Notes under the pieces: generated by a model
The model's input: the letters and a program-made list of their open reading frames with translations, nothing else
Told to the model about the DNA's origin: nothing
The model's database searches: none
In this document: positions 46,510 to 63,525 of the stretch, one piece after another
How positions within the stretch are numbered: position 1 is the stretch's first letter
Layout of the letters: each line of letters begins with the position of its first letter
NCBI RefSeq assembly: GCF_001708185.1
Contig: NZ_MDDN01000005.1
Location: forward strand, 1 to 64,000
Source: Lysinibacillus xylanilyticus
GTDB taxonomy: Bacteria; Bacillota; Bacilli; Bacillales_A; Planococcaceae
Direction: 5' to 3'
DNA: 64,000 nt
Program-made: the position numbers and the translations under genes

Positions 46510-46666
46510 TTGATTTCCATTCCGACTGGGCGCTTTGTTGCTGACGCTACGTAGCGGCAGCAGCAGGATGTTGGTCACGAAGGCGTTATCACAGGACGTG
46601 ATGCTCTTAGCCTTCGTTCCTTTATCGCTGATCCCCAAGGAGTCGCCCAGTCTCCATTCCAATCAA
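46510..46666 (+). repeat. Dispersed hairpin element, copy B (long form)
   Basis: TTGATTTCCATTCC-GACTGGGCG ... CGCCCAGTC-TCCATTCC-AATCAA. The nine-base arm and the outer hexamers pair perfectly. The internal hairpin ACGAAGGC-ATCAC / GTGAT-GCCTTCGT is present (46577-46620). Lies between divergent putP and the methyltransferase gene. Confidence 0.88.
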
Positions 46667-46845
46667 CTTATACACAATACATATATCTTAACAAATGTCA
46701 TCCACAACTTTGGGTGAAGATTAACAAATAGACAATTTAACCTATAATCATTCAGAAAACTAATTCCGAAATGTAAAGTAACATTGTACTGCATAAAATG
46801 TGATAAACTAGTGCCATCTATTACACGATAAAGAAGGCGAAATGT

Positions 46846-48006
46846 ATGACATTTGAAGAAATGAAAGAACAGCTTATGGAGCTAATTTTACAACAGCAGC
46901 TCGTTACTGCTACAATCAGTCAACCCCGTATGAAATCAAACGAAGTAAAACGCATCAAACTAAAGCCTCTGTTGCTTAAGGATGTTTATCATATACAAAT
47001 TGAATACCAATTTGAACGTATTTTAAAACACGAAAACATTCTATTAGAAGATTTCCCTGCGAAGCTAGAAGCCATTTTGAACGATTACCGTCAAGCACAT
47101 ATTGATTTTATGGATGAAAAAGTACATGTACAACTATCAAAAAAGAACAAAGTACTATGGAAATCTGATAAATCCTCGGCTCCAAAGCAAGTAAACTTAG
47201 CACATAATCGTAAGAAAAACTATTTACTAACTGAGGATAAGCCATACCCCTTTTTAATTCGTCTTGGGGTGCAAACAGAAGAAGGAAAAATAAAAAAACA
47301 AAAATACGATAAATTTAAACAAATTAACCGCTTCATCGAATTTATAGATGATGCATTAACATATTTACAAAAGGATCGTCAGGTTCGTATTTTAGATTTC
47401 GGCTCAGGTAAATCCTATTTAACATTCGCCCTATACCATTATTTAAAAGTTGAAAAAGGCCTAGATATCCGTGTCACTGGCTTAGATTTAAAGAAAGAAG
47501 TCATTGAAGAATGTTCACGAATTGCACAGGATTTAGGCTATGAGCAACTCGAATTTCAAGTAGGAGATATTAATGATTATAATGATGAGTCTGCTGTGGA
47601 CATGGTGGTGACGCTTCACGCCTGTGATGTTGCTACAGATATGGCATTAGCTCGCGCTGTAAAATGGGGAGCGAGTGTTATTTTAAGTGTTCCTTGTTGC
47701 CAACATGAGCTAAATCGCCAACTTAACACACCAGCACTTGATATCATGCTTCAGCACGGCCTAGTACGGGAACGTTTCGCAGCGCTCGCAACCGACGCAA
47801 TCCGAGCAGAAATTTTATCACTTGTTGGCTACGAGGCTCAATTACTGGAATTTATTGATATGGAAAATACACCGAAAAACATTCTCATCCGAGCATATCG
47901 TACAGGCAAAAAGCCAAGCTTAGAACAACGTGCTCACTATGATGCATTTTTAAAGTTACTAAATGCTACACCATTTTTAGCAAAAGAGTTACAAGAGTAC
48001 TTGTAA
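46846..48006 (+). CDS. Class I SAM-dependent methyltransferase (Methyltransf_32-like)
   Basis: 386-residue protein. The N-terminal 180 residues are a charged substrate-binding part (KSNEVKRIKLKPLLLKDVYHIQ, then AHNRKKNYLL). Residues about 180-330 form a Rossmann methyltransferase: motif I RILDFGSGKSYLTFALYHYL, acidic end VTGLDLKKEV, motif IV VDMVVTLHACDVATDMAL and SVPCCQHELN. The combination with THxCDxATD resembles the GSTCD/Methyltransf_32 group thought to act on RNA. The substrate is unknown. Monocistronic, with a strong convergent terminator after it. Confidence 0.85.
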   Translation: MTFEEMKEQLMELILQQQLVTATISQPRMKSNEVKRIKLKPLLLKDVYHIQIEYQFERILKHENILLEDFPAKLEAILNDYRQAHIDFMDEKVHVQLSKKNKVLWKSDKSSAPKQVNLAHNRKKNYLLTEDKPYPFLIRLGVQTEEGKIKKQKYDKFKQINRFIEFIDDALTYLQKDRQVRILDFGSGKSYLTFALYHYLKVEKGLDIRVTGLDLKKEVIEECSRIAQDLGYEQLEFQVGDINDYNDESAVDMVVTLHACDVATDMALARAVKWGASVILSVPCCQHELNRQLNTPALDIMLQHGLVRERFAALATDAIRAEILSLVGYEAQLLEFIDMENTPKNILIRAYRTGKKPSLEQRAHYDAFLKLLNATPFLAKELQEYL

Positions 48007-48088
48007 CCTATTCACGAATATTTGTGATCGAAGTGAGCGTATTTGTCTTCTTGCTGCTCGTATTTCTAAATTTTGTTCAATCAAATGG

Positions 48089-48121
48089 AAAGGGCAGTCC
48101 AAAACATCTGGACCGCCCTTT
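48089..48121. terminator. Bidirectional terminator after the methyltransferase and ABC permease
   Basis: GAAAGGGCAGTCC / GGACCGCCCTTTC hairpin between convergent genes. Confidence 0.9.
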
Positions 48122-48125
48122 CAAA

Positions 48126-49442
48126 TTATAGTTCTTGTCGTAACGCTTGGATTACGTCAATTTTAGTGGCCTTACGCGCTGGGCGATAGCCTGAAATCAT
48201 CGCTACACCAATACTAATCGCTGATGCAATGATAACAAGCTGCCACGGAATTAATGAAAATATAATATCACTTTTACTAAAAGCATCTTCACCTGTTGCT
48301 GCTTCAAGAATTAAAGGCAATGCAGCATTTGCCACAAAGCTAATGACATACGAAATTGCTACAGCTATCAAAGTACCCACAATACCGATGAAGGTGCTTT
48401 CCATTAAGAACAATCGTTGAATAAGCTTCGGACTTGCCCCGATTGCCTTTAAAACACCGATTTCACGAGTACGCTCTGTAACTGCCATTGTCATAGTATT
48501 GAAAATACCAATTGATGCGATTAATACAGCAATTGTTCCTACAAATATTAAACCGATTTTTAACACTAGGAAAAATACATTCATTTGATCCAGTTCTTCA
48601 GTAACCGAGTATACGCTATAACCTTTATCTTTTAGTTTGTCTAATATCGGCTTAACATTTTCCATACTATCAGCAAAAATATTAAACTCCGAATAAAACA
48701 TTTCATCCTCTTTAACATCACCTGCTACTAAATTTGCAGCTAGCACAGGCTTTTGCTCTACATCCACATAAATTGAGTTATTTATCATCCAATCATTAGA
48801 AGGCTTCTCCATCACACCGACAATTGTATATTTCATCTTCTCTGTCTCTTCTACAGTACCCGTATTAGGAACTAAAGACATTTCAATCTCTTTACCGATT
48901 AAAGATTCCTTATACCCTTCTTCATTGCCATCATAATACGTGCCTTCCACTTCAGCTTTTTTATTTTTTTCAACAATAATATTGCGCTCAGCATCATTTA
49001 ATAATGTTTGAGCAAAATGATAACCTACAATGATTTCGTTTGGCTTTGATGGATACTTCCCTTCCGCAAGCTTGCCATTCACTTGCTCAAAATTCTGCAT
49101 ATTAGTAACGTACAAATTAGAGTTTGTATCACGTCCCTCAAAAAATGAGTGTGCTGACGCATTGACAGTAATCGTTTCGAGCACCGTTTCCACATGCTCT
49201 ATACCTTTTATTTCATGTATTTCATCTTCAGTAAATTGTTTATCGCCAAACACTTGAATTTTCGTAACTTTTTCATTTGATAGTATTTCATTGCGTAATG
49301 AATCTTGAAGCCCAAATCCGACTGATGCAAGGACAATTAAAAATGCACAGCCCATTGTTGCTGCTAACACAGTCATAAAAACGCGTACTTTATTTTTCTT
49401 TATATGCTGTGTTACAAAATCTAATTGATCTTTAAATAACAT
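48126..49442 (-). CDS. MacB/FtsX-type ABC exporter permease
   Basis: 438-residue permease. N-terminal helix FMTVLAATMGCAFLIVLASVGFGL, a periplasmic-core-type extracellular domain (residues about 45-280) and three C-terminal FtsX helices (IGLIFVGTIAVLIASIGIFNTMTMAVTERTREIGVLKAIGAS contains the coupling motif; then GIVGTLIAVAISYVISFV and LVIIASAISIGVAMISGYRPARKA). Such mechanotransmitters export peptides or lipoproteins or drive cell-envelope signalling. It lies 1 base from the ATPase gene, so they form one unit. No two-component system adjoins, so a bacitracin-type role is not supported. Confidence 0.9.
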   Translation of the reverse strand: MLFKDQLDFVTQHIKKNKVRVFMTVLAATMGCAFLIVLASVGFGLQDSLRNEILSNEKVTKIQVFGDKQFTEDEIHEIKGIEHVETVLETITVNASAHSFFEGRDTNSNLYVTNMQNFEQVNGKLAEGKYPSKPNEIIVGYHFAQTLLNDAERNIIVEKNKKAEVEGTYYDGNEEGYKESLIGKEIEMSLVPNTGTVEETEKMKYTIVGVMEKPSNDWMINNSIYVDVEQKPVLAANLVAGDVKEDEMFYSEFNIFADSMENVKPILDKLKDKGYSVYSVTEELDQMNVFFLVLKIGLIFVGTIAVLIASIGIFNTMTMAVTERTREIGVLKAIGASPKLIQRLFLMESTFIGIVGTLIAVAISYVISFVANAALPLILEAATGEDAFSKSDIIFSLIPWQLVIIASAISIGVAMISGYRPARKATKIDVIQALRQEL

Positions 49443-49443
49443 G

Positions 49444-50130
49444 CTATACTTCCTCCTTCACAAGCTCACCATCGTACATACGGAAATGTCGATGTGCTAT
49501 TGTCGCTACTTCCTCGTCGTGAGTAATAATGACAAATGTTAAACCAAGCTCACGGTTTAAACTTTGAATAAGCAACAATATATCTTGCTCTGTTTCTGAA
49601 TCAAGACTTCCTGTCGGCTCATCCGCCAACAAAATAGGTGGATTTGTAATCAGAGCTCTGGCAATACTAACACGCTGTTGCTGACCACCCGATAATTCAT
49701 TTGGATAATGGTCTGCCACCTCCGTTAGACCCACCTTGTCCATTATTTTTTTCACCTTTGCTTTACGCACAGCTTTCTTAGTACCCTGTAATTTTAATGG
49801 CAGTTCTATATTTTCAAACGCCGTTAAGCCAGGCATCAGTTGAAAGTTTTGAAAGATAAATCCGAACTGTTGCAAGCGAAAAGCTGCACTCTCTGCTTCC
49901 GTGAGATTAGCTATTTCCTTTCCGTTGATCTTAATAGAACCTTGTTCAGATTTCATAAATCCAGCTAACGTTTGTAATAAAGTTGATTTTCCAGAGCCAC
50001 TTTTACCAACAATTGCGACAATTTCCCCTTTTTTCACCTCGAAGTTGACACCTTTTAATACCGGAACCTGTTTTTCCTTGCCTTTTTTTCCTATTAAAAA
50101 TGTATGTTGTAAGTTCTCGACTTGAATCAT
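49444..50130 (-). CDS. MacB/LolD-type ABC exporter ATP-binding protein
   Basis: About 228-residue ATPase of the MacB/LolD group. Walker A GKSGSGKSTLLQTLAG, Q loop FGFIFQNFQLMPGLTAFENIELPL, signature LSGGQQQRVSIARALI, Walker B ILLADEPTGSLD, H loop VIITHDEEVA. ATG 50130 is used; a TTG two codons earlier has slightly better spacing to the AAGGGG motif. Cotranscribed with the permease gene. Confidence 0.93.
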   Translation of the reverse strand: MIQVENLQHTFLIGKKGKEKQVPVLKGVNFEVKKGEIVAIVGKSGSGKSTLLQTLAGFMKSEQGSIKINGKEIANLTEAESAAFRLQQFGFIFQNFQLMPGLTAFENIELPLKLQGTKKAVRKAKVKKIMDKVGLTEVADHYPNELSGGQQQRVSIARALITNPPILLADEPTGSLDSETEQDILLLIQSLNRELGLTFVIITHDEEVATIAHRHFRMYDGELVKEEV

Positions 50131-50136
50131 TGTCAA

Positions 50137-50548
50137 ATAAACGCCCCTTCCTCATGCTTTCTCCATTGTAGTCAAGAATTCTTAATAAAGTTGAAGGATA
50201 AAAATGAAGATATTCTTAAGAAAAAGGGAAAACTTTTAGCAAAGCGACACCTTTACATTTCCTTTACAATTCAACTGAAAATTTTTTCTGAAATATTATG
50301 TCCAGATAGTATAATTTGTGTATTAAACAGCAGGTATGAATCTTTAAAAACACTATTTTTAAAGTGTTTATCTGTATTAATAAAAACAAATACAGTGATA
50401 CTTTTATTATTTTGTGAACAAATTGTATATTACAGGATTGTAAATTTTTTTGTAGAATCGAAGAATTTTATGTAGATAATTTAAAGATTTTGTTATGATA
50501 GTAAAGTTTAGAGGCCAATTTAATTATATCCAGGAGGATTCGATTTAC
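50137..50548. other. Intergenic region between ABC exporter and DUF47-Pit operon
   Basis: AT-rich, no gene. On the plus strand TTTACA occurs twice 11 bases apart (50252-50257 and 50263-50268), the spacing of PhoP-box repeats. It lies almost 300 bases from the DUF47 start, so relevance is doubtful. Confidence 0.3.
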
Positions 50549-51169
50549 ATGCTTAACTCAAAAAAACAAGACCCTTTCTTTATAGCTTTGCATAAAATTG
50601 CTGAGAATATGAGAGAGGCCGTACATTACGCAAATGATTTTCGTATTAACAGTGTAGCTGACCTAAAAGAGATTAGCATTACTATGAAAAATTACGAAAC
50701 AGCTGGTGATAAACTTATTCATGAACTGATCGTGATGCTAAACAAATCATTTATGACACCTATCGAACGCGAAGATATTCTCGAATTTGCTATTCGTATG
50801 GACGATGTATTAGATGGTACAGAGCATTGTATCGCTCATTTTGAAATGTTTTCCCTAACAGAAGTTGATGAATCAATGCGTATTTTCTTAGGCTATATTT
50901 CAAAAAGTGCTGACGAAATTGTTAAAGCAACAGAAGAGTTAAAGAAAAAGAATCTTATTGGCATGCGCCCACACGCAATTCTTATTAAAGACTACGAGCG
51001 TGAATGTGATGAAGTACAACGTTCATCTATTAAAAAATTATTTGTAAATGAAAAAGATCCAATTCGACTTATTAAATATAAAGATATATATGAGCAACTT
51101 GAAGATATCGCTGATCATTGCCAAAACGTTGCAAATACAATGGAAACAATTATCATGCGTAATGCGTAA
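50549..51169 (+). CDS. DUF47 / PhoU-like phosphate transport regulator (YkaA-like)
   Basis: About 206-residue helical protein of the DUF47 family, PhoU-like proteins found next to Pit phosphate transporters. Helical segments FIALHKIAENMREAVHYAND, TMKNYETAGDKLIHELIVMLNKSFMTPIEREDILEFAIRMDDVLDGTEH and EQLEDIADHCQNVANTMETI show the ExxxD metal-cluster-type residues (E/D patterns) of PhoU. ATG 50549 has AGGAGG 11 bases before it; the frame opens 54 bases earlier without one. Followed after 20 bases by the transporter gene. Confidence 0.92.
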   Translation: MLNSKKQDPFFIALHKIAENMREAVHYANDFRINSVADLKEISITMKNYETAGDKLIHELIVMLNKSFMTPIEREDILEFAIRMDDVLDGTEHCIAHFEMFSLTEVDESMRIFLGYISKSADEIVKATEELKKKNLIGMRPHAILIKDYERECDEVQRSSIKKLFVNEKDPIRLIKYKDIYEQLEDIADHCQNVANTMETIIMRNA

Positions 51170-51189
51170 TTAGGAGATGGGCACTTACA

Positions 51190-52206
51190 ATGAACACAAT
51201 CATTATTCTAACCGTACTGGTCGTTATCTTTGCCCTAACATTTGACTTTATCAATGGCTTCCACGATACAGCAAATGCTATCGCAACTTCAGTTTCCACT
51301 AGAGCATTGAAACCTCGTGTAGCTATCCTGCTGGCTGCAACGATGAACTTTATCGGAGCGATTACCTTCGTCGGAGTTGCAAAGGCTCTAACAAAAGACA
51401 TTGTAGATCCATTCGCTTTAAATGCCTTTCCAGGAGACACGACAGGCTCAGTCGTTATTTTAGCAGCATTAATTTCAGCTATTGTTTGGAACTTACTAAC
51501 ATGGTATTTCGGTATTCCATCAAGTTCTTCTCACACTCTGATTGGATCCATTGCTGGTGCAGCAGTTGCATCTTCCGGCTTCGGAGTTCTAAACTATAGC
51601 GGTTTTACTAAAATCATTATGGCACTAGTGCTATCTCCAATCCTTGCGATTTGCGCTGGCTTTATTATGATGACACTATTTAAATTATTGTTTAAAAACT
51701 TGAATTTATATCGTACGAACAAAGGTTTCCGTACAATGCAAATTTTCACTGCTGCCATTCAATCTTTTACACATGGTACAAACGATGCACAAAAAGCAAT
51801 GGGAATTATGACGATGGCATTAATCGCCGCTGGTTTGCATACAGGAGATGAAATTCCTTTTTGGGTACGAGCATCAGCAGCAACTGCAATGGGGCTTGGT
51901 ACCTCTATCGGTGGCTATAAGATTATTAAAACAGTCGGCGGTAAAATCATGAAAATCCGTCCTGTAAATGGGGTAGCAGCAGATTTAGCTTCTGCTTCAG
52001 TTATCTTTGGTGCTACATTAATTCACCTGCCAGTATCCACAACACACGTTATTTCTTCCTCTATCATGGGTGTCGGCTCGGCACAACGTGTTCGTGGTGT
52101 AAACTGGGGAATGGCACGTAAAATCGTAACTACTTGGATTATTACAATGCCAATTTCAGCCGTTATGGCAGCTGTTATTTACTTCTTGTTAGCTTTATTC
52201 TTTTAA
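51190..52206 (+). CDS. pit: Low-affinity inorganic phosphate transporter (Pit family)
   Basis: 338-residue Pit-family transporter importing phosphate, often as a metal-phosphate complex, by proton symport. The duplicated PiT signature is seen in both halves: FDFINGFHDTANAIATSVSTRALKP and SFTHGTNDAQKAMGIMTMAL. Also SSSHTLIGSIAGAAVASSG and LPVSTTHVISSSIMGVG. About ten helices. Partner DUF47 gene upstream as in B. subtilis ykaAB. Confidence 0.95.
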   Translation: MNTIIILTVLVVIFALTFDFINGFHDTANAIATSVSTRALKPRVAILLAATMNFIGAITFVGVAKALTKDIVDPFALNAFPGDTTGSVVILAALISAIVWNLLTWYFGIPSSSSHTLIGSIAGAAVASSGFGVLNYSGFTKIIMALVLSPILAICAGFIMMTLFKLLFKNLNLYRTNKGFRTMQIFTAAIQSFTHGTNDAQKAMGIMTMALIAAGLHTGDEIPFWVRASAATAMGLGTSIGGYKIIKTVGGKIMKIRPVNGVAADLASASVIFGATLIHLPVSTTHVISSSIMGVGSAQRVRGVNWGMARKIVTTWIITMPISAVMAAVIYFLLALFF

Positions 52207-52268
52207 CTTCTTTCCTGAAAGAAGTTAAAGCCGATTCCGGACGAAATTATGCCAAGGCATAATTGATT
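52202..52268 (+). repeat. Short repeat, left copy flanking the MMPL gene
   Basis: Begins with the near-perfect hairpin TTTAACTTCTTTC / GAAAGAAGTTAAA, then CCGGACGAAATTATGCC-AAGGCATAATTGAT, itself palindromic. Its complement recurs at 54497-54549. It overlaps the pit stop codon and may serve as part of its 3' end. Confidence 0.65.
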
Positions 52269-52284
52269 TTGATCGCATACTAAG

Positions 52285-52310
52285 ACTCCTGTTCCTTATC
52301 GGACAGGAGT
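52285..52310 (+). terminator. Terminator of the DUF47-pit operon
   Basis: ACTCCTGT / ACAGGAGT hairpin followed by TTTT, 79 bases past the pit stop. Confidence 0.82.
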
Positions 52311-52379
52311 TTTTACATTATCACACGACAAAATGTGACACATCCTTTACACTATTTATAAGGAGGATCGTACACTACT

Positions 52380-54494
52380 ATGAAAACTTTTTCAGCCTTT
52401 ATTACAGCTCACGCAAAAGCTATCGTGGCAATATGGTTCGTCATTTTTATAGCGATGGCTATGTTTGCCATACAACTTCCAAGCAAGCTTCAAGGAGACG
52501 GCTTTTTTGTTGAAGGAGATCATACCTACGTCACAAATGAGCTGGCAGAAACATTTGATTTGCCTTCTGATACAATCTTAGTCGTATTTGATCCGGCCGA
52601 GGATAAGAAAATTCAAGATACTTTAAAAAAGTTAGAAAAAGTAAAGGAGATTCATTCAATCCAGTCACCGCTTGATGATCCTTCTTTACAAAAGAATGGT
52701 ATAGCCTATGCAATGGTTCATATTAAAAATGATGTTGACAATCTACCTGATGTAGTGAAGGACATCCGTTCTTTAATAGAGGATGACGGAGTGAGCATTA
52801 CAGGTGGGCCTGTTATTTCAGAGGACATTAATACAGCCAGTCAAAAGGATTTGGCGTCAGCGGAAGCAATTGGCTTACCAATCGCCATCATAGTGCTATT
52901 ACTAGCTTTTGGTACTGTTGTAGCCTCAATCTTACCGATCATTATTGGTGTTGTCACTGTTGTAACTGCGTTCGGAATTTTAACACTGCTTAGCGGTAAT
53001 GTGAATTTATCGATTTTTGTGTTAAATATAGTACCTATGCTTGGACTAGCATTAAGCATTGATTTCGCCTTATTGTTTATTAACCGATATCGCGAAGAAC
53101 GTGCCCATACATCCATTGTACAAGCTATTCAAACCGCTATACAGACAGCTGGCCGTTCTATCATCTTTTCTGCTGTTTGCGTCATGATCGGTTTAGGTGC
53201 CATGATTGTCATTGACGTCGAAATATTTCACAATATCGCTTTAGGAGGCACCATTGTTGTATTACTTGCCGTACTTTCTGGCTTAACCTTGCTTCCTGCT
53301 ACTATGACACTATTAGGGGACCGCCTAAATAAATGGCGATTATTACGTGTAAAGCCTGGTGGCGCAAATCGTTGGCGTGGCTTTGCAGGTTTTGTTATGA
53401 AACATCCAGTGACCATCGTTATTGTAGCATTATTATTACTAGGTATTGGTATGATTCCATTGAAGGATATTAAACTTACCATTCCTCAGGTGGATTCATT
53501 ACCAACAAAATATGAGGCACGTGCAGCGTATGATAAATTAGATGAAACGTTCGGACTTGGTGATACCTCAACTTTATATTTACTAGCAGAACGTAAGGAA
53601 GGCTGGGAAGATAGTGAGGCCCGAGAGCTTATTTACACTATTCAAGAAAAGCTACTCGATGACCCACTGGTAAATGATGTCGCAACCATTTATACGACTG
53701 CGAACATTAAGTCACCCGAGGAACTAACTGCTTCTTTGGAAATTCCACAAGTGGCAGAACAATTAAAACCAATTCAAGATACGTTTTCTAAGGGCAATCA
53801 ACTCTTTATCCCAATTACATTGGATGCAGCTGGTTCATCAACTACCGCTCAAAAATTCGCTCGAACTTGGAAAGATCAAGATTTAGGTGTCAATTTTGCA
53901 CTCGGCGGTCCTGCGAAATTCAACCAAGAAATTTTTGATGAAATCTCTAGTAAAATTCTCTTGGCCGTATCCATTATTATCATATCAACATTCTTTATTT
54001 TAATGCTCGCTTTCCGTTCGATTTTAATCCCACTGAAAGCGATTATTATGAATATCATTGGACTTTCATCAGCCTTCGGTATTCTCGTCTATATTTTCCA
54101 ATACGGACATTTGGGAATTGAAGCTGGAACGATTGTACTCATAATTCCAGTCATTGTATTTTGTCTTGTATTCGGCTTAAGTATGGACTATGAAGTCTTT
54201 TTAATATCACGTATTCAAGAGGAATATCAAAAAGGTGCGGATAATACACGCGCTACGATTGAGGGTCTAACCTCTACAAGTCGTATCATTACGTCAGCAG
54301 CGCTTATTATGATTGTCATAACAGGGGCATTCGCTTTCACAGATGTGATGCCAGTGAAGCAAATTGGTGTTGGTATAGCCATTGCAGTCGCCATCGATGC
54401 AACTATTATTCGTCTAATGCTCGTACCAAGTCTTATGAAGCTCCTCGGGGATTGGAATTGGTGGCTACCCTTTGCGAAGAAACAGAATAGATAG
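52380..54494 (+). CDS. MMPL-family RND transporter (YdfJ-like)
   Basis: 704-residue RND-superfamily exporter of the MMPL type, 12 helices in two repeats with two extracellular loops (residues about 35-165 and 365-520). Helix 4 of each half carries the expected polar residues: GLALSIDFALLFINRYREE (first half, Asp) and FGLSMDYEVFLISRIQEEY (second half, Asp-Tyr). These match MmpL/YdfJ proteins, which move lipids or amphipathic drugs using proton force. Substrate unknown. RBS AAGGAGG before ATG. Flanked by an inverted pair of short repeats. Confidence 0.92.
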   Translation: MKTFSAFITAHAKAIVAIWFVIFIAMAMFAIQLPSKLQGDGFFVEGDHTYVTNELAETFDLPSDTILVVFDPAEDKKIQDTLKKLEKVKEIHSIQSPLDDPSLQKNGIAYAMVHIKNDVDNLPDVVKDIRSLIEDDGVSITGGPVISEDINTASQKDLASAEAIGLPIAIIVLLLAFGTVVASILPIIIGVVTVVTAFGILTLLSGNVNLSIFVLNIVPMLGLALSIDFALLFINRYREERAHTSIVQAIQTAIQTAGRSIIFSAVCVMIGLGAMIVIDVEIFHNIALGGTIVVLLAVLSGLTLLPATMTLLGDRLNKWRLLRVKPGGANRWRGFAGFVMKHPVTIVIVALLLLGIGMIPLKDIKLTIPQVDSLPTKYEARAAYDKLDETFGLGDTSTLYLLAERKEGWEDSEARELIYTIQEKLLDDPLVNDVATIYTTANIKSPEELTASLEIPQVAEQLKPIQDTFSKGNQLFIPITLDAAGSSTTAQKFARTWKDQDLGVNFALGGPAKFNQEIFDEISSKILLAVSIIIISTFFILMLAFRSILIPLKAIIMNIIGLSSAFGILVYIFQYGHLGIEAGTIVLIIPVIVFCLVFGLSMDYEVFLISRIQEEYQKGADNTRATIEGLTSTSRIITSAALIMIVITGAFAFTDVMPVKQIGVGIAIAVAIDATIIRLMLVPSLMKLLGDWNWWLPFAKKQNR

Positions 54495-54496
54495 AG

Positions 54497-54549
54497 ATCA
54501 ATTATAGCTTGGCATAATTACGTCCGAAGTCGACTGAAAGAAGTAAAAA
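54497..54549 (-). repeat. Short repeat, right copy flanking the MMPL gene
   Basis: Complement reads ACTTCTTTCAGTCGACTTCGGACGTAATTATGCC-AAGCTATAATTGAT across two parts, aligning with 52202-52268 but lacking the hairpin arm GAAAGAAGTTAAA. Confidence 0.6.
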
Positions 54550-54595: not shown

Positions 54596-54600
54596 TTGTC

Positions 54601-55212
54601 TTATTTTGAATAAATACGGTCGTACCATTCTTTTGCTGCTTCTACCTCAGGCATCGTTAGCTGATGACCATAATGAAACCATTTCGTCGTCACCTCTGCC
54701 CCTGCTGCCGTTAAAAGCGCCTGTAAGTCTTCCGATTCCTGTGCAGAACACATTGGATCATTCGTTCCAGCACCAATAAAAACAGGGATTGAAGAAAGTA
54801 CAGGCAACTCAATACCACGTCTAGGCACCATTGGATGATGCAGTATTGCGCCTGTTAGAGCATCCTCAAAATGGAATAATAGGCTAGCAGCAATATTTGC
54901 ACCATTTGAATAGCCAATAGCTACAACTCGATTACGATCAAAGCCATACTGCTGCGCTGCCTCTAATAGAAAGTCATTTAATTCCTTCGTACGGAAAATT
55001 AAATCCTCTAGATCAAAAACACCCTCCGCCAATCGACGGAAAAAGCGTGGCATGCCATTTTCAAGCACATTTCCACGCACACTTAAAATGCTTGCTGTAT
55101 CATCAATTTCCTTTGCAAGACCAATTAAGCTTTGTTCATTTCCACCTGTACCATGTAACAGTAAAAGAATCGGCTTTGTCTCATCTGTTCCTTTATGAAA
55201 AACGTGCTGCAT
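54601..55212 (-). CDS. MhqD-like phospholipase/carboxylesterase family hydrolase
   Basis: 203-residue alpha/beta hydrolase of the phospholipase/carboxylesterase type. Catalytic triad: nucleophile Ser in VAIGYSNGANIAAS, Asp in FIGAGTNDPMCS and His in FHYGHQLTMPE; the oxyanion segment is LLLHGTGGNEQSLI. Size and motifs match B. subtilis MhqD, induced by quinones and catechols. The 18-bp operator and promoter directly upstream support that assignment. Start ATG with GAGGTGG upstream. Confidence 0.88.
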   Translation of the reverse strand: MQHVFHKGTDETKPILLLLHGTGGNEQSLIGLAKEIDDTASILSVRGNVLENGMPRFFRRLAEGVFDLEDLIFRTKELNDFLLEAAQQYGFDRNRVVAIGYSNGANIAASLLFHFEDALTGAILHHPMVPRRGIELPVLSSIPVFIGAGTNDPMCSAQESEDLQALLTAAGAEVTTKWFHYGHQLTMPEVEAAKEWYDRIYSK

Positions 55213-55230
55213 TGACAGTCCACCTCTCGA

Positions 55231-55422
55231 TTATCTTGAATTCGAGATAATTGTAGCCTGTGGCAAAATTAAATTCAAGCTCTTGGACTTATTAATTTCT
55301 CGATTTTCACGATTTGGCTGTTCCACATTGTTTTTATAAAAGTTTTTTATCGAAAATACTGAAATTAAACATACAGCTATAACAGAAACAATCACTATTC
55401 CCACTATTTTTTTCCCATTCAT
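55231..55422 (-). CDS. Small membrane-anchored hypothetical protein (doubtful)
   Basis: 63-residue frame with a ribosome-site-like GGGGG 10 bases before ATG and a clear N-terminal helix (MNGKKIVGIVIVSVIAVCLISVFSI), followed by a polar tail rich in Asn and Glu. Its last codons run through the promoter and operator of the MhqD-like gene, which lowers confidence that the whole frame is a gene. Confidence 0.45.
   Translation of the reverse strand: MNGKKIVGIVIVSVIAVCLISVFSIKNFYKNNVEQPNRENREINKSKSLNLILPQATIISNSR
55232..55249. promoter_or_regulatory. MhqR-type operator at the MhqD-like gene
   Basis: TATCTTGAATTCGAGATA, the exact complement of the azoR operator (13523-13540), directly adjoining the -10 box and 20 bases before the start codon. 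Confidence 0.78.
55250..55278 (-). promoter_or_regulatory. Promoter of the MhqD-like gene
   Basis: Minus-strand -35 TTGAAT (55278-55273), 17-base spacer, -10 TACAAT (55255-55250). The operator covers the start of transcription. Confidence 0.68.
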
Positions 55423-55444
55423 TTGTTATGATCCCCCGGGTTAC

Positions 55445-55906
55445 TTATTTCTTTTTACGAAAGCCCTCTTCTAGTAAATATTCTTTCGCAGCATCATGTG
55501 TACCAAAGGCTTCCTCTAAATTTTCGCCATGATAAACATTCCATGAACGTTGCTCAAAGGCTAGCTTTAATTGAACACCTTCACGACTTTGCCATATCTC
55601 TTCAATTGGCTCTTGCTCTTCTTCTTCCGATAAATATTGAATGGCATCTTCAATAATCTCACGAAGCTGTTGTTCATTGTAGTCACGAATATTTACGAGC
55701 CCTTTATCGTTTGCTTCTTCCTCATAGCGCAATAAATCACCAACAAAGACAAAGCCGTTGCCATTTGGATGTAGCTTTTCTACAACAATGGTCTTCTCAT
55801 AAAGGCTATCCATCAAGTGATAATTTAAGCGTTTTAATGAAATCTCCTTCTTTGTAAGTTCAGGAAATGACTCAATAATAGTTTGTTTTTGTTCAAATGT
55901 TAGCAT
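55445..55906 (-). CDS. Hypothetical protein
   Basis: 153-residue acidic cytosolic protein that I do not assign. It begins MLTFEQKQTIIESFPELTKKEISLKRLNYH. A middle part has strand-like LHPNGNGFVFVGDLLRY and an acidic run EEEEQEPIEEI. The C-terminal helix is THDAAKEYLLEEGFRKKK. No membrane segment and no metal site. Monocistronic between the small frame at 55231-55422 and a dispersed element. Confidence 0.7.
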   Translation of the reverse strand: MLTFEQKQTIIESFPELTKKEISLKRLNYHLMDSLYEKTIVVEKLHPNGNGFVFVGDLLRYEEEANDKGLVNIRDYNEQQLREIIEDAIQYLSEEEEQEPIEEIWQSREGVQLKLAFEQRSWNVYHGENLEEAFGTHDAAKEYLLEEGFRKKK

Positions 55907-56026
55907 ATAAAAATGCTCCTTTTCTATTCAATCTACCTTACAGTATAACTTATTTTTCCTGTTAGTTTGAAGTAAAATAAGCAGTTCTAAAAGTGAAAAT
56001 AGTGGCTTCTTGTCCATAGTGTGTGG

Positions 56027-56146
56027 TTGATTTCCGTTCCAACAGGGCGCTTTCCTGGGGGCGTCCGATGAGCCGCTTCGCTTCGCTGCAGGGTCTCATC
56101 TGTGACGCTGATCCCCAAGGAGTCGCCCTGTTTCCACTCCAATCAA
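56027..56146 (+). repeat. Dispersed hairpin element, copy C (short form)
   Basis: TTGATTTCCGTTCC-AACAGGGCG ... CGCCCTGTT-TCCACTCC-AATCAA, all arms perfect. The middle holds CCTGGGGG-CGTC-GATGAG paired with CTCATC-GACG-CCCCAAGG around a GC-rich tip. Confidence 0.9.
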
Positions 56147-56256
56147 CTTATATACATGAGATTTGTTTTTTAAAAAATTTTATTCTCAATTTTTAATAAT
56201 GAGGCAAAAATAGTATTTTTATGCGGGAAGATACTAATTATTTTCTGATATAAAGA

Positions 56257-56417
56257 TAAAAATCCGCGTATGCCTCTGCGGGGAAAGCCAGAGAACGAGA
56301 CCAGACCCACCATGGAGTTAGCGAAACTATGTTGTGCGACGAAGCGTGATTAGACGCAGCGTCAGGAGCACAGCACTTTGGCTCGTACCTTGCCCGCAGG
56401 AGGCGAAGCGGATTTTA
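56257..56417 (+). repeat. Large hairpin element, second family, copy 1
   Basis: Outer arms TAAAAATCCGC / GCGGATTTTA, then GCCTCTGCGGG / CCCGCAGGAGGC, enclosing about 110 bases with further weak pairing. No open frame. A decayed relative lies at 58296-58398. Confidence 0.7.
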
Positions 56418-56474
56418 CCATTTACAATTATGCTAGAACTCTTATGAAGTGCTTTCTCAGACATCCTCCACAAT

Positions 56475-57098
56475 TCATAACTTTTTATTAAACATTTTTT
56501 CTTTTACAAACTGAATAACATGCGCAACGTATAGTTCTCGATAAGGGACAAATTGTGCAATACTAACTGGGCGCACAATTTTCACTCGTTTACCATCAGG
56601 GAAATATTCATAGCCTTCAATATTAAGAGTAGCTGTTCCGCCTAAAAAGAATGCCTCTGCCTCATCAAGCTTTGCTCTAACGACCCCTGATACTTCTTCA
56701 TATTGAAGTTCAAACGAATCCCAATCATGTTTGAATGGATATGTAAAAACATGACAAAATTCATTGTCGATCATATTTTCCGAAACGATACTACAAGACG
56801 TCATGCCCATTTTAACAACCTCGTGAACGTGAATATCAAGTCCTAGCTCTTCCTTCACTTCACGTATTCCTGATTCTACTGTCTCGGCGGCTAACAGATG
56901 CCCTGCCGCTGTAATATCAAGTAAACCAGGGTAGTCCTTTTTTTGTGCACTACGGATTTGGAAATAAATATAGTCCTCATTGACAAGCCAACAGTGGAAT
57001 GTTTCATGCCACAGCCCTTTTTCATGTACTTCTGCTCTTGTTGCTGTCCCAATCTGTTCATGCTGCTCATTAAAAACTTTCACAATTTCCTGTTCCAT
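56475..57098 (-). CDS. NUDIX hydrolase (isopentenyl-diphosphate isomerase-like)
   Basis: 207-residue NUDIX protein with an extended N-terminal part (EIVKVFNEQHEQIGTATRAEVHEKGLWHETFHCWLV) of the IPP-isomerase/YfcD class. The NUDIX box is complete at about 66-87: GHLLAAETVESGIREVKEELGL. The substrate is not predictable; the family includes nucleoside-diphosphate-X hydrolases. It starts 12 bases after the AI-2E gene, so the two are probably cotranscribed. Confidence 0.9.
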   Translation of the reverse strand: MEQEIVKVFNEQHEQIGTATRAEVHEKGLWHETFHCWLVNEDYIYFQIRSAQKKDYPGLLDITAAGHLLAAETVESGIREVKEELGLDIHVHEVVKMGMTSCSIVSENMIDNEFCHVFTYPFKHDWDSFELQYEEVSGVVRAKLDEAEAFFLGGTATLNIEGYEYFPDGKRVKIVRPVSIAQFVPYRELYVAHVIQFVKEKMFNKKL

Positions 57099-57110
57099 TT
57101 TTTTCGACTC

Positions 57111-58196
57111 CTATACTGACTTCGTAGCCTTATTCTTAATCGCGTTACGCTGATCATAAATATTGGATACAATCACTTTTAATACGGCATAGAATGGTAC
57201 AGCAATAAGAATGCCGATGAAGCCTGCAATATTACCCGCAGCTAAAATAATCGTAATAACTGTTAACGGATGTATATCGAGTGTTTTCCCCATAACATTA
57301 GGTGTTATAAAGTTACTATCAATTTGCTGTGCCACGAGTGTGACAACCGATACCCATATTACTAGAACGGGATCCTGAATAACTGCTACAACTACTGCTG
57401 GTGCAAAGGCAATCCAAGGTCCAATAAACGGAATCATATTCATAAAGAACGCGAATATAACAAGTAGCAACGAATACTCTAGACCCATCATTAAATACCC
57501 GACAAACATAATGAGCGCTAGTAAAAAACTAATTTGCAGCTGCCCTTGAATATAGCTACGTAATACACTATCAATTTCACTTAACGTCTTCTTCACCCAT
57601 TCACGGCGCTCACCGCTGAAATATTTATAAATTGATGGTGCAAATTTTTCATGATCCTTCAACATAAAGATAAAGAAGAATGGAATTAAAATAGCTAATA
57701 AAGAGGCAGATACAATTGATTGTAAAAACGAAACTAGCCCCTTACTTGCCACAATGGCAATATCTTGTACAGAATTCGCGATACTATCGATCATCTCTTT
57801 TAACTGTGGTGGGAAATTTTCCATATTTCTCACCACGTAGTCAGTTGCATCCTGAATACCTTTACTAATCATTGGTGCATTTTTCACTAGCTTATTTAAC
57901 TGTTCCGCAATCGGATTACCAACAACCCAACCAAAGCCAACAGCGATTGCTATAAGTCCAACAACTATTGCCAATATACTTGACCATCTCGGCCATCCAT
58001 GTTTTTCTAAAAACCTTTGAATTGGCTCTGTTACATAGTACAAAACACCACCAAGTAACAAAGGGACAAAAATAGTTTTTAAAATAATGACAAGCGGTGA
58101 AAAGATCCAATGAATCTCTACAAAATATTTAATGATTAATAGAACAAGTAAAAACCCTACACCTACTTGAAACCAAACTTTCCTCGTCACTTTCAT
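57111..58196 (-). CDS. AI-2E family transporter
   Basis: 361-residue membrane protein of the AI-2E (YueF/YtvI) exporter family. Helices at about 10-30, 33-55, 70-90, 160-180, 215-245, 255-280 and 300-345; a cytosolic-type loop (SKGIQDATDYVVRNMENFPPQLKEMIDSI) lies between. Family signatures FFFIFMLKDHEKF, YIQGQLQISFLLALIMFVGYLMMGLEYSLLL and PFIGPWIAFAPAVVVA are clear. Members move autoinducer-2 or ions, the substrate being unclear in Bacillales. First gene before the NUDIX gene. Confidence 0.9.
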   Translation of the reverse strand: MKVTRKVWFQVGVGFLLVLLIIKYFVEIHWIFSPLVIILKTIFVPLLLGGVLYYVTEPIQRFLEKHGWPRWSSILAIVVGLIAIAVGFGWVVGNPIAEQLNKLVKNAPMISKGIQDATDYVVRNMENFPPQLKEMIDSIANSVQDIAIVASKGLVSFLQSIVSASLLAILIPFFFIFMLKDHEKFAPSIYKYFSGERREWVKKTLSEIDSVLRSYIQGQLQISFLLALIMFVGYLMMGLEYSLLLVIFAFFMNMIPFIGPWIAFAPAVVVAVIQDPVLVIWVSVVTLVAQQIDSNFITPNVMGKTLDIHPLTVITIILAAGNIAGFIGILIAVPFYAVLKVIVSNIYDQRNAIKNKATKSV

Positions 58197-58295
58197 TCAC
58201 TTCCTTTTATCACATATAATGAGAATACTACTTATATATTTACCATTTCGCAAGTATCCTATTATTTATTATCAAATAAAATAGGTTTTGAAACA

Positions 58296-58398
58296 AAAAA
58301 ATCCGCTCCCCTCCCACGGACGTTCCGCAAGCCTCTCTATGCAAAAGCATCTAAAAGGGCTTGCATAACTTGTTTTCCCGTAGGAGTATAGCGAATCT
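58296..58398 (+). repeat. Large hairpin element, second family, decayed copy 2
   Basis: Begins AAATCCGCTCCCCTCCCACGG and ends CCCGTAGGAGTATAGCGAATC, pairing imperfectly in the pattern of 56257-56417. Lies just past the M3 peptidase stop and may act as its 3' end. Confidence 0.45.
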
Positions 58399-58424
58399 TC
58401 ACTTCTGTTGCATAACTTAACTGT

Positions 58425-60122
58425 TTATAATTTTGTATCGTCTACTGAATTTAAGTAATCTTCAATATCACCGATTACAGATTCAACACAGCCGTCCTCG
58501 AATGGCGAAATTAACCCTGCTTCTTTTACAAGCTTTGTAAAGGACATAGAGCCTCCTAAACCACATAAATGGATATAATCCTTCCAAGCAGCTTCAAATT
58601 CTTCACGTGAACGTTTCCAGAATTGGAATGCACAAATTTGTGCTAACGTGTAATCAATATAATAGAACGGGCTCGCATAAATATGTCCCTGACGTTGCCA
58701 TATACCACCCGCCTCTAGATAGCTATTATGATCATAGTCACGGTGCGGTAAATATGTTTCCTCAATCTTTTTCCATGCAGCCTTGCGTTCAGCTGGTGTC
58801 ATATTCGGATTTTCGTAGATAACATGCTGGAACTCATCAACTGCAACACCGTAAGGAAGGAATAATAAACCGCTACTTAAGTGTGTAAACTTATATTTTT
58901 CTGTATCTTCCTTAAAGAATAACTCCATCCATGGCCATGTGAAAAATTCCATACTCATCGAATGAATTTCACAAGACTCATATGTTGGCCATAAGTATTC
59001 TGGGATACCAATATTACGACTTGAATAAACTTGGAAAGCATGTCCTGCTTCATGTGTTAACACATCGATATCGCCTGAAGTACCATTAAAGTTCGAGAAG
59101 ATAAATGGTGAGTGATAGTTTTCGATAAATGTACAATAACCGCCACTCTCTTTTCCTTTCTTCGCCACTAAGTCCATTAAATCATGGTCAATCATGAAGT
59201 TGAAGAATTCACCAGTTTCAGGTGATAGCTCTTCATACATTTTTTTACCGTTCGCAACAATCCACTCCGGATCGCCTTTTGGTGTAGCATTTCCTGATAA
59301 GAAGTTTAATGCTTCATCATAGAACTTAAAGTCAGAAATACCAATACGTTTCGCCTGACGTTCGTATAATTTTGTTGCAAGTGGTACGATCAAATCACGA
59401 ACTTGGTCACGGAATTTCTGTACCATTTCTGCGTTATAATCAATGCGATTCATTCGAACATAGCCTAACTCAACATAGTTTTTATATCCTAATTTAACAG
59501 CAATTTCATGACGCACCTTGACAAGTTCATCATACAATCGATCAAATTCCTCTTCATGGCCCGCAAAAAAGCCAAAGCGTGCATCTGTTGCCGCTTTACG
59601 CATTGCACGATCAGTAGACTCCGCATATGGTCCAAGCTGTGCAAGTGTTAATGTTTCACCATTAAAATCAATTTGCGCAGAGGCAACTAGTTTATTGTAT
59701 TCTGAAACAAGCTTATTCTCCTTTTGCATTAAATCAATGACTGTTGGTGAAAAGCCTTTAATTTGATAGGTTGCTAAATCGAATAACTGCTGACCCCATT
59801 TTTCTTCTAACTGTTCACGGAATGGAGAAGCGATTAGTGCTTTATAATATTCTGTCGTTACCTCTTCTAGCTCAGGGCCAACCTCGTCGAAATAATCGCG
59901 TTCTGCATGATAAAATTCATCATTTGTATCAATTGAAGCACGAATATACACTAAGTTCGCCATTGTAGCATAATCATTACTTAATGCGTTTAACTTGCCG
60001 ATTACCCCACTTTGTTCGTCCATCGTTTGAGCATTTTTAAATTGCTCAATTAAAGATAATTGTTGCTCTTTCATTACCTCAATATTTGGACGGCTGTATT
60101 CATAGTCTTTAAACGTTTTCAT
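58425..60122 (-). CDS. M3-family oligoendopeptidase (PepF-like)
   Basis: 565-residue zinc metallopeptidase that digests oligopeptides in the cytosol. The HEAGH zinc motif is at about residues 357-361 (DVLTHEAGHAFQVYSS), with the third ligand Glu at about 385 in YESCEIHSMSMEF. The His-Tyr region near the substrate follows at RQGHIYASPFYYIDYTLAQICAFQFW. Length and C-terminal domain match the M3B/PepF-like family of about 560-600 residues. Monocistronic. Confidence 0.93.
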   Translation of the reverse strand: MKTFKDYEYSRPNIEVMKEQQLSLIEQFKNAQTMDEQSGVIGKLNALSNDYATMANLVYIRASIDTNDEFYHAERDYFDEVGPELEEVTTEYYKALIASPFREQLEEKWGQQLFDLATYQIKGFSPTVIDLMQKENKLVSEYNKLVASAQIDFNGETLTLAQLGPYAESTDRAMRKAATDARFGFFAGHEEEFDRLYDELVKVRHEIAVKLGYKNYVELGYVRMNRIDYNAEMVQKFRDQVRDLIVPLATKLYERQAKRIGISDFKFYDEALNFLSGNATPKGDPEWIVANGKKMYEELSPETGEFFNFMIDHDLMDLVAKKGKESGGYCTFIENYHSPFIFSNFNGTSGDIDVLTHEAGHAFQVYSSRNIGIPEYLWPTYESCEIHSMSMEFFTWPWMELFFKEDTEKYKFTHLSSGLLFLPYGVAVDEFQHVIYENPNMTPAERKAAWKKIEETYLPHRDYDHNSYLEAGGIWQRQGHIYASPFYYIDYTLAQICAFQFWKRSREEFEAAWKDYIHLCGLGGSMSFTKLVKEAGLISPFEDGCVESVIGDIEDYLNSVDDTKL

Positions 60123-60196
60123 AGAAATCCCCTCTTTCTGTCATATACCCCGTTATCTCTCTATTATATGCCAAATCTATCATATTAAGAAACAAT

Positions 60197-60772
60197 TTAG
60201 TAACCAATTATATATGTTTTTAATAGTGCTGCTCTTTCACGTAGTTCTAGCTTTGCTTCCACTGATTTTGGTGTTTTTGCTGCAACGACATCTACTTCAA
60301 AATCTAAAGTCTCAGCTAAATATTTTGCACGTTTTAAATGAAAATCATTAGAGACAATCGTGATTCGCTTTGTTCCTGTAGGCAATAGTTCTTTAGAAAA
60401 CAATAAATTCTCATAAGTGGATGTAGATTGGTCTTCCACTAATATTCTGTTCGTATCAATACCGTTATCCTGTAAGTACTTAAGCATTACAGAAGCCTCT
60501 GTTCGATCTTCATCCGCTCCTTGCCCGCCTGAAACAATCACTTTCACATGAGGATACTTATTTAAATACTTAACAGCCTCCTCTAATCTATTTTTCAAAG
60601 AAAGCGATGGAACTCCCCCCGGTTTTACCTTCGCCCCTAGCACAATCACGTATTCAGCTGTGCCGTTTGCAACCGGCTGGACACCTTGTTTCATCTCCTC
60701 GCCAAGCCAAATATAAACAACACCACCCACAGCGAGTAGCAAAATACCAACCCATAACACCCATTTTTTCAC
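60197..60772 (-). CDS. YdcF/DUF218-family membrane-anchored protein
   Basis: 191-residue protein with an N-terminal helix (WVLWVGILLLAVGGVVYIWL) and a DUF218 domain outside the membrane: YVIVLGAKVKPGGVPSLSLKNRLEEAV, VIVSGGQGADEDRTEA, VEDQSTSTYENLLFSKELL and IVSNDFHLKRAKYLAETL. Such proteins are linked to envelope sugar or vancomycin-related processes and may be ElyC-like; the activity is not known. Confidence 0.88.
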   Translation of the reverse strand: MKKWVLWVGILLLAVGGVVYIWLGEEMKQGVQPVANGTAEYVIVLGAKVKPGGVPSLSLKNRLEEAVKYLNKYPHVKVIVSGGQGADEDRTEASVMLKYLQDNGIDTNRILVEDQSTSTYENLLFSKELLPTGTKRITIVSNDFHLKRAKYLAETLDFEVDVVAAKTPKSVEAKLELRERAALLKTYIIGY

Positions 60773-60816
60773 AATTCCCCCCTCCTTTACCTTTTATTAA
60801 CGATAAGTGAAGAAAA

Positions 60817-60852
60817 AGGATGCTTGTACGAGTAATTTTGTACAAGCATCCT
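60817..60852 (-). terminator. Terminator of the chemoreceptor gene
   Basis: AGGATGCTTGTA / TACAAGCATCCT hairpin followed by TTTTTC on the minus strand. Confidence 0.9.
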
Positions 60853-60858
60853 GATTGA

Positions 60859-62601
60859 TTATCTTAATATAAAGCGCTTAATAGAGTCCTGTAATGCCGT
60901 TATTTCATCTGTTAAATCATTGGAAGATTCACTAACAATTTGAATGGCATGCTGTTGTTCATCAACAGATGCCGTTACTTCCTCTGAAGCAGCAGCATTT
61001 TTCTCACTAATCATCGCAATACTTTCGATAGATTGTATAATGTTATCCTTTGAGCTATTCAAATATTCTACGCCCGCAGTCATGTCCCCAATGACAGCAA
61101 TAATTTTCTCTACGGCTAATTCGATTTCCTTAAAGGATAATTCTGTTATGGCAACCGAATCATTTTGCTGACGAACAATGACATTTGTTTTTTTCATCTC
61201 ATCGTTTACTAAATTAGTTTCACTTTCAATCCCCTTTATGGTTGTACGCACTAGCTCGGTTGCTACAGATGTTTGATCCGCAAGCTTACGTACCTCCTCA
61301 GCAACAACTGCAAATCCTTTACCATGCTCACCGGCTCTAGCTGCTTCTATTGATGCATTTAATGCAAGTAGATTCGTCTGATTTGAAATTTCAGTAATGG
61401 TACCGACAATACCTTCAATTTCCCTAACTTTCACAATTAAGCTATTAAATACAGCCTGAACGTTATTAATCAACTCAGAAGACTCATGTGATTTCTCTTT
61501 TAAACCATTTACATTAACGAGACCTTTTTGATTTGATTGCTTCATATGTTGAGATGCATCAAGCATTACTTCATTTTTATCATGTAATATTTCAATCTGC
61601 TGAGCAAACTCAATGGCAGTTCTATTTGTATCCTCAGCATCTGAAGCTTGCTTTAATGCACCGCTTGAAACCTCGTTAATTGCTTTTACTATTTCATCTC
61701 CATAAGCGTTTGTTTCCTCTGCCACAGATGTTAAATTTGACGATGTCGATTGAATTTCTACAATAGCTTCCTCAACATCTGTAATTAGTGTTTTTAATTG
61801 ATGTACCATGTCGTTAAAGCCTTCATTTAGCTGACCAATTTCATCTGTACGTTGTAGATCTTCAATTTCTACAGTCAAATTCCCCTTGGCTACCTCACGT
61901 ACGCGTTTAGATAGTTTTTGGACTGGTAAAGCCAAATGTCTAGAGACCATTATGACAACTACTGTACCCATAATGATAGCTCCTACTAATGTAATACCAA
62001 TAATGAGTAATAATGAGTTCGCTTCTTTATTAAAGTCTTGCATATATGTACCTGATGCTATGATCCATCCCCAGTGAGGATCTTTTGCAGAATAAATGAT
62101 TTTATCAGCGATTACATCTTGACCCGGCAACTCAAATTCATATTGCGTGAAGCCCCCACCAGCAAGTGCTTTTTTGGTTACTTCCCGAATAAAATAGTTA
62201 CCACTACTATCTTGATCATTCCATAGGTTGTCCCCTTCTCGAGTCGGATGAGTTGTTAATGTCCCTTTTTCATCTAAGATGTATATATATCCGTTCTCTC
62301 CCAAATCCCCAGGATAATTGATTGGTCTCTTTCCTTCACTATCCTTCGGTCCGAGTATCGCCTCCCGCACTCGCTCCTGTGCAACTTCTAAAGGAATATC
62401 ACCCTTTTCAACACTTTCATTGGCTAACTCGATTAATTGCAAAGTAGTTTCAACACTATTCTGAATAACTTGTTCTCCAATATCCTCCATACCATTTTTA
62501 GCTTTACCATAACTAACCAAACCTATAATCAGGCTTGGTATAATTAATAATGCTAATGAAATAATAATTAGTTTTCCCTGTATCGAACGTAAAAATTTCA
62601 T
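60859..62601 (-). CDS. Methyl-accepting chemotaxis protein with Cache domain
   Basis: 580-residue transmembrane chemoreceptor. TM1 is about residues 10-30 ([22 protein letters not shown]). The extracellular part holds a single-Cache-type domain ([43 protein letters not shown]...[23 protein letters not shown]). TM2 is about 195-215 ([23 protein letters not shown]), then HAMP and the signalling hairpin with the conserved tip [32 protein letters not shown]. Ligand unknown; Cache domains bind small amino acids or carboxylates. Confidence 0.94.
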
Positions 62602-62743
62602 GCTTTAGCCCCCTTTTCTTCTTCATTAACCAAGACTATTAATCTATATTATGTTATGGTTTGAATTTTTTCACAATGGGTAAATTGCAATACAAGGACG
62701 AATTATTTGCTTTTTTAGCCAAATACGGATTAATAATGAGGGA

Positions 62744-62858
62744 TTGATTTCCGTTCCGGTTGGGCGCTTTCCTGGGGGCGTCCGATGAGCCGCTTCGCTG
62801 CAGGGTCTCATCTGTGACGCTGATCCCCAAGGAGTCGCCCAACCTCCACTCCAATCAA
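62744..62858 (+). repeat. Dispersed hairpin element, copy D (short form)
   Basis: TTGATTTCCGTTCC-GGTTGGGCG ... CGCCCAACC-TCCACTCC-AATCAA, all arms perfect. The middle is almost identical to copy C, so the nine-base arm is the main difference. Confidence 0.9.
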
Positions 62859-63447: not shown

Positions 63448-63525
63448 CTCGTTTTGCCGAAGAGTCATACTTTATCTAATATGGTATCTTAATTTCATTG
63501 ACGTAATAGTTTTTCATAATAAAAA

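Follow-up and report, generated by a model that had tools for sequence, protein, structure and literature searches.

The window analysed here, a stretch of 64,000 nucleotides from the genome of Lysinibacillus xylanilyticus (G000; 4.76 Mb in 48 contigs), contains several copies of an intergenic hairpin element, the first of which (copy 1) has an open frame on either side, at 44936–46420 (minus strand) and 46846–48006 (plus strand). An earlier note on this DNA had placed three copies at 46510–46666 (copy 1), 56027–56146 (copy 2), and 62744–62858 (copy 3), with nine-base inner arms that differ in sequence and are perfectly complementary in each. Re-inspection bears out both the positions and the pairing, which is 9/9 for GACTGGGCG/CGCCCAGTC in copy 1, AACAGGGCG/CGCCCTGTT in copy 2, and GGTTGGGCG/CGCCCAACC in copy 3, and the single G-C within the internal loop is indeed A-T in copy 1. 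The list of three was incomplete, as the window also holds a fourth full copy (36654–37080) and a fragment of a further element in the opposite orientation (about 63373–63456, plus strand), and the limits given for the elements were too short, as the flank alignment extends them outward to terminal inverted repeats. The tips were described as shared by all three, but only copies 2 and 3 have the same tip, and that of copy 1 contains a match to the Bacillaceae-1 RNA (RF01690).

Copy 1 as a whole MITE spans 46488–46723 (236 bp, plus strand), with the left end GGCTCAGCACCA and a decayed right end TTGGGTGAAGATTA, and is flanked by the target duplications ATAAATAT (46480–46487) and ACAAATAG (46724–46731); most near relatives have ACAAATAT in place of the former at their empty site. 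Its hairpin core is assigned to the minus strand, on which the conserved loops are purine-rich, and carries the Bacillaceae-1 module at 46560–46626 (minus strand, 74.9 bits) in its tip. Copy 4, which is absent from the earlier note, is a MITE of 427 bp on the plus strand with the duplications TATTATTG (36646–36653) and TATTATTT (37081–37088); its core (36676–37023, minus strand) contains small tandem hairpin modules and a Bacillaceae-1 module at 36913–36983 (minus strand, 49.6 bits), and the A-C mismatches seen at two of its arm pairs on the plus strand read as G-U on the minus strand. Copy 2 (56004–56205, plus strand) has partly decayed ends and duplications, read by eye, of GAAAATAG (55995–56002), which one base separates from the element, and AAAAATAG (56206–56213); its core, on the minus strand, folds with z-scores of −5.66 (minus) and −4.54 (plus). 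The core of copy 3, also on the minus strand, keeps 17/17 outer pairs, though its left end matches at 8/22 bases, and the fragment contains a weak Bacillaceae-1 match at 63386–63455 (plus strand, 44.9 bits).

Across the genome, the left-end pattern, with at most two mismatches allowed, matches 155 times (102 on the plus and 53 on the minus strand) and the reversed control pattern matches 0 times; the repeat is thus not due to chance. Left and right ends pair into 64 distinct stretches (loci L001–L090), which are 83 to 571 bp long with two exceptions, at 1051 and 1265 bp, that appear to be wrongly paired ends, and a further 15 left ends at these loci have no right partner. The outer arms are constant among the copies and the interior is variable, and other Lysinibacillus loci (e.g., L134, L159, L160, and L191) have the same arms and left flank. 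In an alignment of the flanks of 60 copies, conservation extends over 22 bases on the left side of the hairpin and about 57 bases on its right, and the conserved flanks terminate in the inverted repeats GGCTCATCACCA (left) and TGGTGATGAGCC (right). Both ends are recognisable in 44 of the 76 left ends examined, and in 20 of these 44 two-ended copies the flanking 8-mers are identical at seven or eight of the eight positions (at all eight in 13), against a mean of 0.77 and a maximum of 5 in 5000 shuffles. These 8-bp target duplications are 89% A+T, and in the relative G133 duplications flank 6/9 copies (maximum of 5 in shuffles).

The region downstream of copy 1 is matched in 31/31 other genomes of the genus, and the site of copy 1, the copy to which this comparison applies, is empty in 19/19 relatives whose loci were compared. 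Extra sequence of another kind lies near the same site in L272 and L274. The number of exact left ends varies within the genus from 0 to 212 per genome, counts in which genomes with one or two exact 14-base matches may owe these to chance or to sequence within genes, the reversed control having one match in each of five genomes.

The ISL3 transposase domain (PF01610) has a single match in the genome, in a 397-codon frame without stops, and NCBIfam assigns the protein to the ISL3 family of transposases with 218.3 bits (cut-off 180). The frame lies in a stretch of 1316 bp, each end of which is identical by eye to the MITE consensus at 22 of 24 positions, and on the left side the likeness extends to 30/35. 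The earlier note had raised a transposase that recognises the ends of the element, and at the level of sequence this expectation holds, in that the ends of the resident ISL3 element match those of the MITEs. ISL3 elements make 8-bp target duplications. As the sole ISL3-family transposase sits between nearly identical ends, the identity of the element in this genome as an ISL3-type MITE is well supported, and the likeness of the ends suggests that the MITEs can probably be moved by a transposase encoded elsewhere in the genome. The 8-mers flanking the resident ISL3 element itself disagree and show no matching duplication, so its activity stays putative.

Within the genus, PF01610 is found in 18/32 genomes, in 17 of them above the cut-off, and is absent from 14/32, including G049 with its 31 exact left ends, which weighs against a simple account. 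Among the 30 ISL3 loci of the genus that were examined (L121 included), six combine MITE-like ends (17–18 of 20) with perfect 8-bp duplications, and two more have ends matching at 15–16 of 20 together with perfect duplications. The ends are present and a duplication is missing at L121 and L458, and L439 and L441 have different ends and perfect duplications.

The structure of the core, hand-written on one aligned copy, was evaluated on 43 aligned cores, which comprise 40 of the 42 distinct full-length cores from a genome scan across genera (without L160 and L161), two window copies, and L034. Paired cells amount to 87.6%, compared with 74.8% after shuffling, and 22 of the 35 pairs have changes on both sides in this set from several genera. 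That pairing persists under changed sequence, as the earlier note described, is confirmed by the shuffle tests: double-change cells number 182, as opposed to 64.5 ± 6.5 in shuffled and 20–40 in slid structures, with relatedness not fully controlled. The covariation score is 0.294, compared with 0.099 ± 0.008 after shuffling and 0.031–0.056 for slid versions; the innermost tip helix is paired in 48% of cells. In this genome, 391/456 arm pairs are formed (76 rows, all retained, several of them spurious), where 2000 shuffles give a mean of 358.0 and a maximum of 376, and the corresponding values for other species are 424/588 (98 rows), 337.6, and 370. Three cores fold, on either strand, better than 200/200 shuffles (z −4.4 to −6.2). 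Read on the strand opposite to that of the earlier note, the two internal loops consist of G-N-A facing G-G-A. On the loop side left free by the search pattern, a variable middle base stands between a conserved outer G and A; the other side is set by the pattern and hence uninformative on conservation. This arrangement would be consistent with tandem sheared G-A pairs.

The core also hosts smaller nested hairpins, namely Bacillaceae-1 and units of about 36 bp in tandem. The genome contains 136 matches to RF01690, of which 134 are above its cut-off and three lie in the window, and among the best 30 of the 136, 19 are located between both core ends, six beside one, and five beside none; three of these five are near contig ends. 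The core hairpin itself (L168) reaches at best 17.9 bits against the Rfam families, where the gathering score is 50.

The earlier note pointed to similar elements in other Bacillaceae, and their existence is borne out by a genome scan and by the covariance model R1. The pattern GATTTCCGTTCC-N6-9-CGCTTTCC occurs in at least 117 stretches in the genomes scanned, and the 80 matches listed include Lysinibacillus, Fictibacillus, Neobacillus, Mesobacillus, Peribacillus, Sporosarcina, Psychrobacillus, Lentibacillus, and Planococcus, among others. At E ≤ 1e-4, R1 matches 248/261 genomes of the order and 19/19 genera, all labelled as one family, in a scan that scored at most 13 places per genome and so gives presence, not copy number. 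At E ≤ 1e-6, 96/398 genomes of the class and 34/145 genera are matched; the R1 matches in the class cover 20 family labels, some by weak E-values only, and the E-values are themselves rough. The core L168 matches 16 of 72,556 plasmid records and 0 of 50,697 phage records. Taken as a widespread structured module, the core is well supported.

The ends around this core differ among genera. In an unguided search of 55 copies for inverted ends together with agreeing flanking 8-mers, the highest scores (20 for L189, 20 for L187, and 19 for L178) belong to Lysinibacillus-type ends, and L195 scores 18 with GGCTGTGTTA-like ends and AATGAAAA on both sides. Six further rows score 17, the best of 165 mispaired controls being 16, and two of these six (L161 and L197) have no recurring end motif. 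By eye, TTTTATTT lies outside GGCTG..TGTTAAA ends in L164 and L183. A third, GGCT-TTTTC-AAA-like type is present at L391, L411, and L429, with L137 possibly the same, and a fourth type, GAGGCTGGGACAAA with TGTCCCAGCCTC, flanks the copies of G010, which show no clear duplication; there are six such copies, and some of their right ends are altered or beyond the compared sequence. A separate unguided search of 60 copies from ten genomes was set aside, as it gave 4 hits compared with 8 in 201 mispaired controls at similar scores. Three of those 4 hits have one end motif in common. The claim of several end types thus relies on the recurring motifs and not on the 60-copy scan, and these motifs suggest that in other genera the same hairpin is carried inside MITE-like elements bounded by different ends. 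For several genera, however, the sequence around the core showed no recognisable transposon ends.

These observations are best accommodated by a joint explanation with two layers, to which we assign a probability of roughly 0.7. In the first layer, the hairpin would be the interior of a non-autonomous ISL3-family transposon that is moved in trans by the resident ISL3 transposase through shared ends and generates 8-bp duplications; the ends, the duplications, the empty site, and the matching resident ends are observed directly, and the act of transposition is what we infer from them. In the second layer, the interior would be a structured module, widespread in Bacilli, that combines covarying stems with conserved loops, is carried by MITE-like elements whose ends differ by genus, and is itself host to smaller hairpins. 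The fold would be kept by selection, aided by hairpin-templated correction.

The strongest competing account, which we consider unlikely though far from negligible, accepts the same MITE and dispenses with selection on the fold: the arms would stay paired because hairpin-templated (quasi-palindrome) correction at the replication fork uses one arm as the template for the other, and the loops would persist because long perfect palindromes are unstable. Among the 76 left ends examined, L089 is perfectly palindromic across arms and boxes, L074 is partly palindromised and still has its ends, and the right box in Neobacillus L140 and L183 resembles the complement of the left box. As one arm can evidently be rewritten from the other, selection is not the sole possible cause of the pairing, and the earlier reading holds in so far as pairing is preserved while the sequence changes; selection on the fold is one of two possible causes, hairpin-templated correction being the other. 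Equally rare G-U and A-C intermediates across species (18 and 20 of 1261 cells) also fit the account without selection. Against it, 23 of the 28 distinct arm pairs among the 64 cleaner copies have at least one non-Watson–Crick pair (5 are fully Watson–Crick), the loop positions are Watson–Crick in 1/384 cases (in copies chosen with a limit on loop changes), and the loop bases on the pattern-free side are conserved in sequence across genera. Selection is ranked first on account of these conserved loop bases and the frequency of one-sided steps. No trend is drawn between kept pairing and end match (Spearman −0.20, p 0.11), as the copies were found by the core, which favours cases like copy 3, and their low end scores include a variant end type.

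The earlier note left the fold to act as RNA or as single-stranded DNA, and the near equality of G-U and A-C across species favours neither form. In the distinct arm pairs of this genome, the excess of G-U is not significant (18 G-U vs 10 A-C, p 0.18). An apparent G-U excess in the 64 copies (50 vs 12) was discarded as a strand test, being driven by one subfamily and lost across species and after de-duplication.

A second alternative, which appears improbable, is that a host regulatory RNA, acting in cis or in trans, was picked up by MITEs by chance and forms the core. The strong covariation, the conserved loops, and the presence of a match in nearly all genomes of the order would suit such an RNA, as would a strand bias along genes in this genome, where the minus strand of the element runs in the direction of the genes in 26 tandem contexts, compared with 11 in the other orientation (p 0.02); this bias also counts in favour of the joint explanation. 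The contexts themselves are mixed and argue against it: with neighbouring genes called by a simple open-frame rule, 63 copies comprise 17 divergent, 9 convergent, and 37 tandem arrangements. The wide range of left-end counts within the genus and the lack of an above-threshold Rfam match for the core likewise speak against a host RNA. The left neighbour is directed away from the element in 43/63 copies (p 0.005); the direction of the right neighbour shows no bias (35/63, p 0.45), nor does tandem orientation in 42 copies from other genera (10 to 10), which counts against the joint explanation.

Several other signals were considered and rejected. In G133, one arm type is distributed unevenly between the two chromosome halves, with 10 plus and 29 minus in the first against 24 plus and 17 minus in the second (p 0.004), a split that gene direction could explain, so no claim about replication is made. 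T-run hairpins pointing toward the core in other genera (left 31/154, right 13/154) were dropped as terminators, as another 28 on the left side point away from it and many belong to the repeats themselves. Around copy 1, a built-in promoter was sought, and 2 promoter-like matches were found where 1.6 are expected.

A REP-like element of single-stranded DNA, mobilised by a Y1 transposase (RAYT or IS200-type), would also be palindromic, intergenic, and present in many copies, and is highly improbable given the 8-bp duplications, the ends of an ISL3 element, and 0 matches to the Y1 transposase domain (PF01797) in this genome, unless the enzyme has been lost or lies in unassembled sequence.

Among known systems, the joint explanation places the element closest to the ISL3-family insertion sequences and their MITEs, with which it shares ends that match a resident ISL3 element and begin with GG, and AT-rich 8-bp duplications; it differs from them in that its interior is a structured, more widely distributed core with no visible remnant of an ISL3 gene. 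BOX elements of streptococci are described as mobile-looking modular hairpin repeats whose ends are constant and whose inner modules vary in number, and in S. suis different outer modules surround the same inner ones (PMC3049150). The elements described here, which keep their arms and vary in their inner modules over a length range of 83 to 571 bp, are likened to BOX by architecture; in the available portions of that source no transposase is named, whereas here one has been identified and the outer hairpin is common to many genera. The Bacillaceae-1 RNA (RF01690; PMC2864571) is nested in the tips of many copies, but it is the nested module alone that matches, and the surrounding core does not. 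Bhal-1 and bcr1 are stem-loop families of intergenic repeats in Bacillus genomes (PMC2267715) and resemble the core in being intergenic stem-loop repeats, a comparison made by description only. A search of open-access literature returned no paper recognised as naming this element, and the core, which has no Rfam 15 match, appears to be without a name.

As to function, the likeliest of the candidates, though still tentative and by analogy with what has been proposed for BOX, is that the long hairpin stabilises or shields the RNA beside the insertion when present in read-through transcripts, which would make insertions tolerable. With similarly guarded confidence, the core may be regarded as an unnamed structured cargo, handed on from one transposon to another and inherited independently of any one of them; MITEs with different transposase ends would have taken it up, it would outlast eroded ends, and additional small hairpins would land in it. 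The element provides many natural copies of a single hairpin whose arms covary, beside an identified transposase. This set could separate selection on the fold from hairpin-templated mutation, and it allows the conservation of a MITE interior to be put to the test.

Two copies of the element in the L. xylanilyticus genome have become palindromic, perfectly in L089 (G000:C9:52403) and partially in L074 (G000:C2:50074), with a right half complementary to the left one, and the transposon ends are still present in L074 despite its partial palindrome. These palindromes point directly to hairpin-templated copying.

The core, the hairpin inside the ISL3-type MITE copies, also contains tandem units of ~36 bp, like TTGCTGTCGCTTCGCTTTCGCACAGATAAAACAT, which vary in number (window 36700-36800, in copy 4, and many copies elsewhere in the genome). 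These units, often flanked on either side by a short core repeat, seem to enter the hairpin at fixed places. An insert of ~55-65 bp occupies one position in the right arm in several genera (L135, L162, L163, L165, L190, and L201); an AGGA (or GGA) motif stands on each side of it, as would be expected had a very small element duplicated its target site there.

The same genome also carries a second family (L024, L049, L058, and L078), in which the boxes are the same, the arms read AGGCTACTCG/CGAGTAGCCT, and the flanks are different. Long left flanks, which include a terminator-like hairpin, are common to the copies of genome G438 (L381-L384) and to those of genome G370 (L376-L379), and the repeated unit there is therefore larger than the core.

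Among the plasmid matches to core L168, the same match (query 26-117, 81.5%) recurs in five plasmids (H9-H13) assigned to Paenibacillus urinalis, Priestia megaterium, and Bacillus subtilis, which suggests the transfer of one intergenic stretch among them; the H13 match sits directly after gnd.

In the window, a tandem repeat open on both strands (62965-63559) lies between copy 3 (core 62744-62858) and a fragment at ~63373-63456. The right end of copy 1 (46488-46723) supplies a TTAACA located 16 bases before a TATAAT (46721-46748; 11 of 12 promoter letters), and the pair precedes the gene at 46846. As this TATAAT also occurs in near relatives without the insert, the insertion of copy 1 may have rebuilt the -35 box ahead of the gene.
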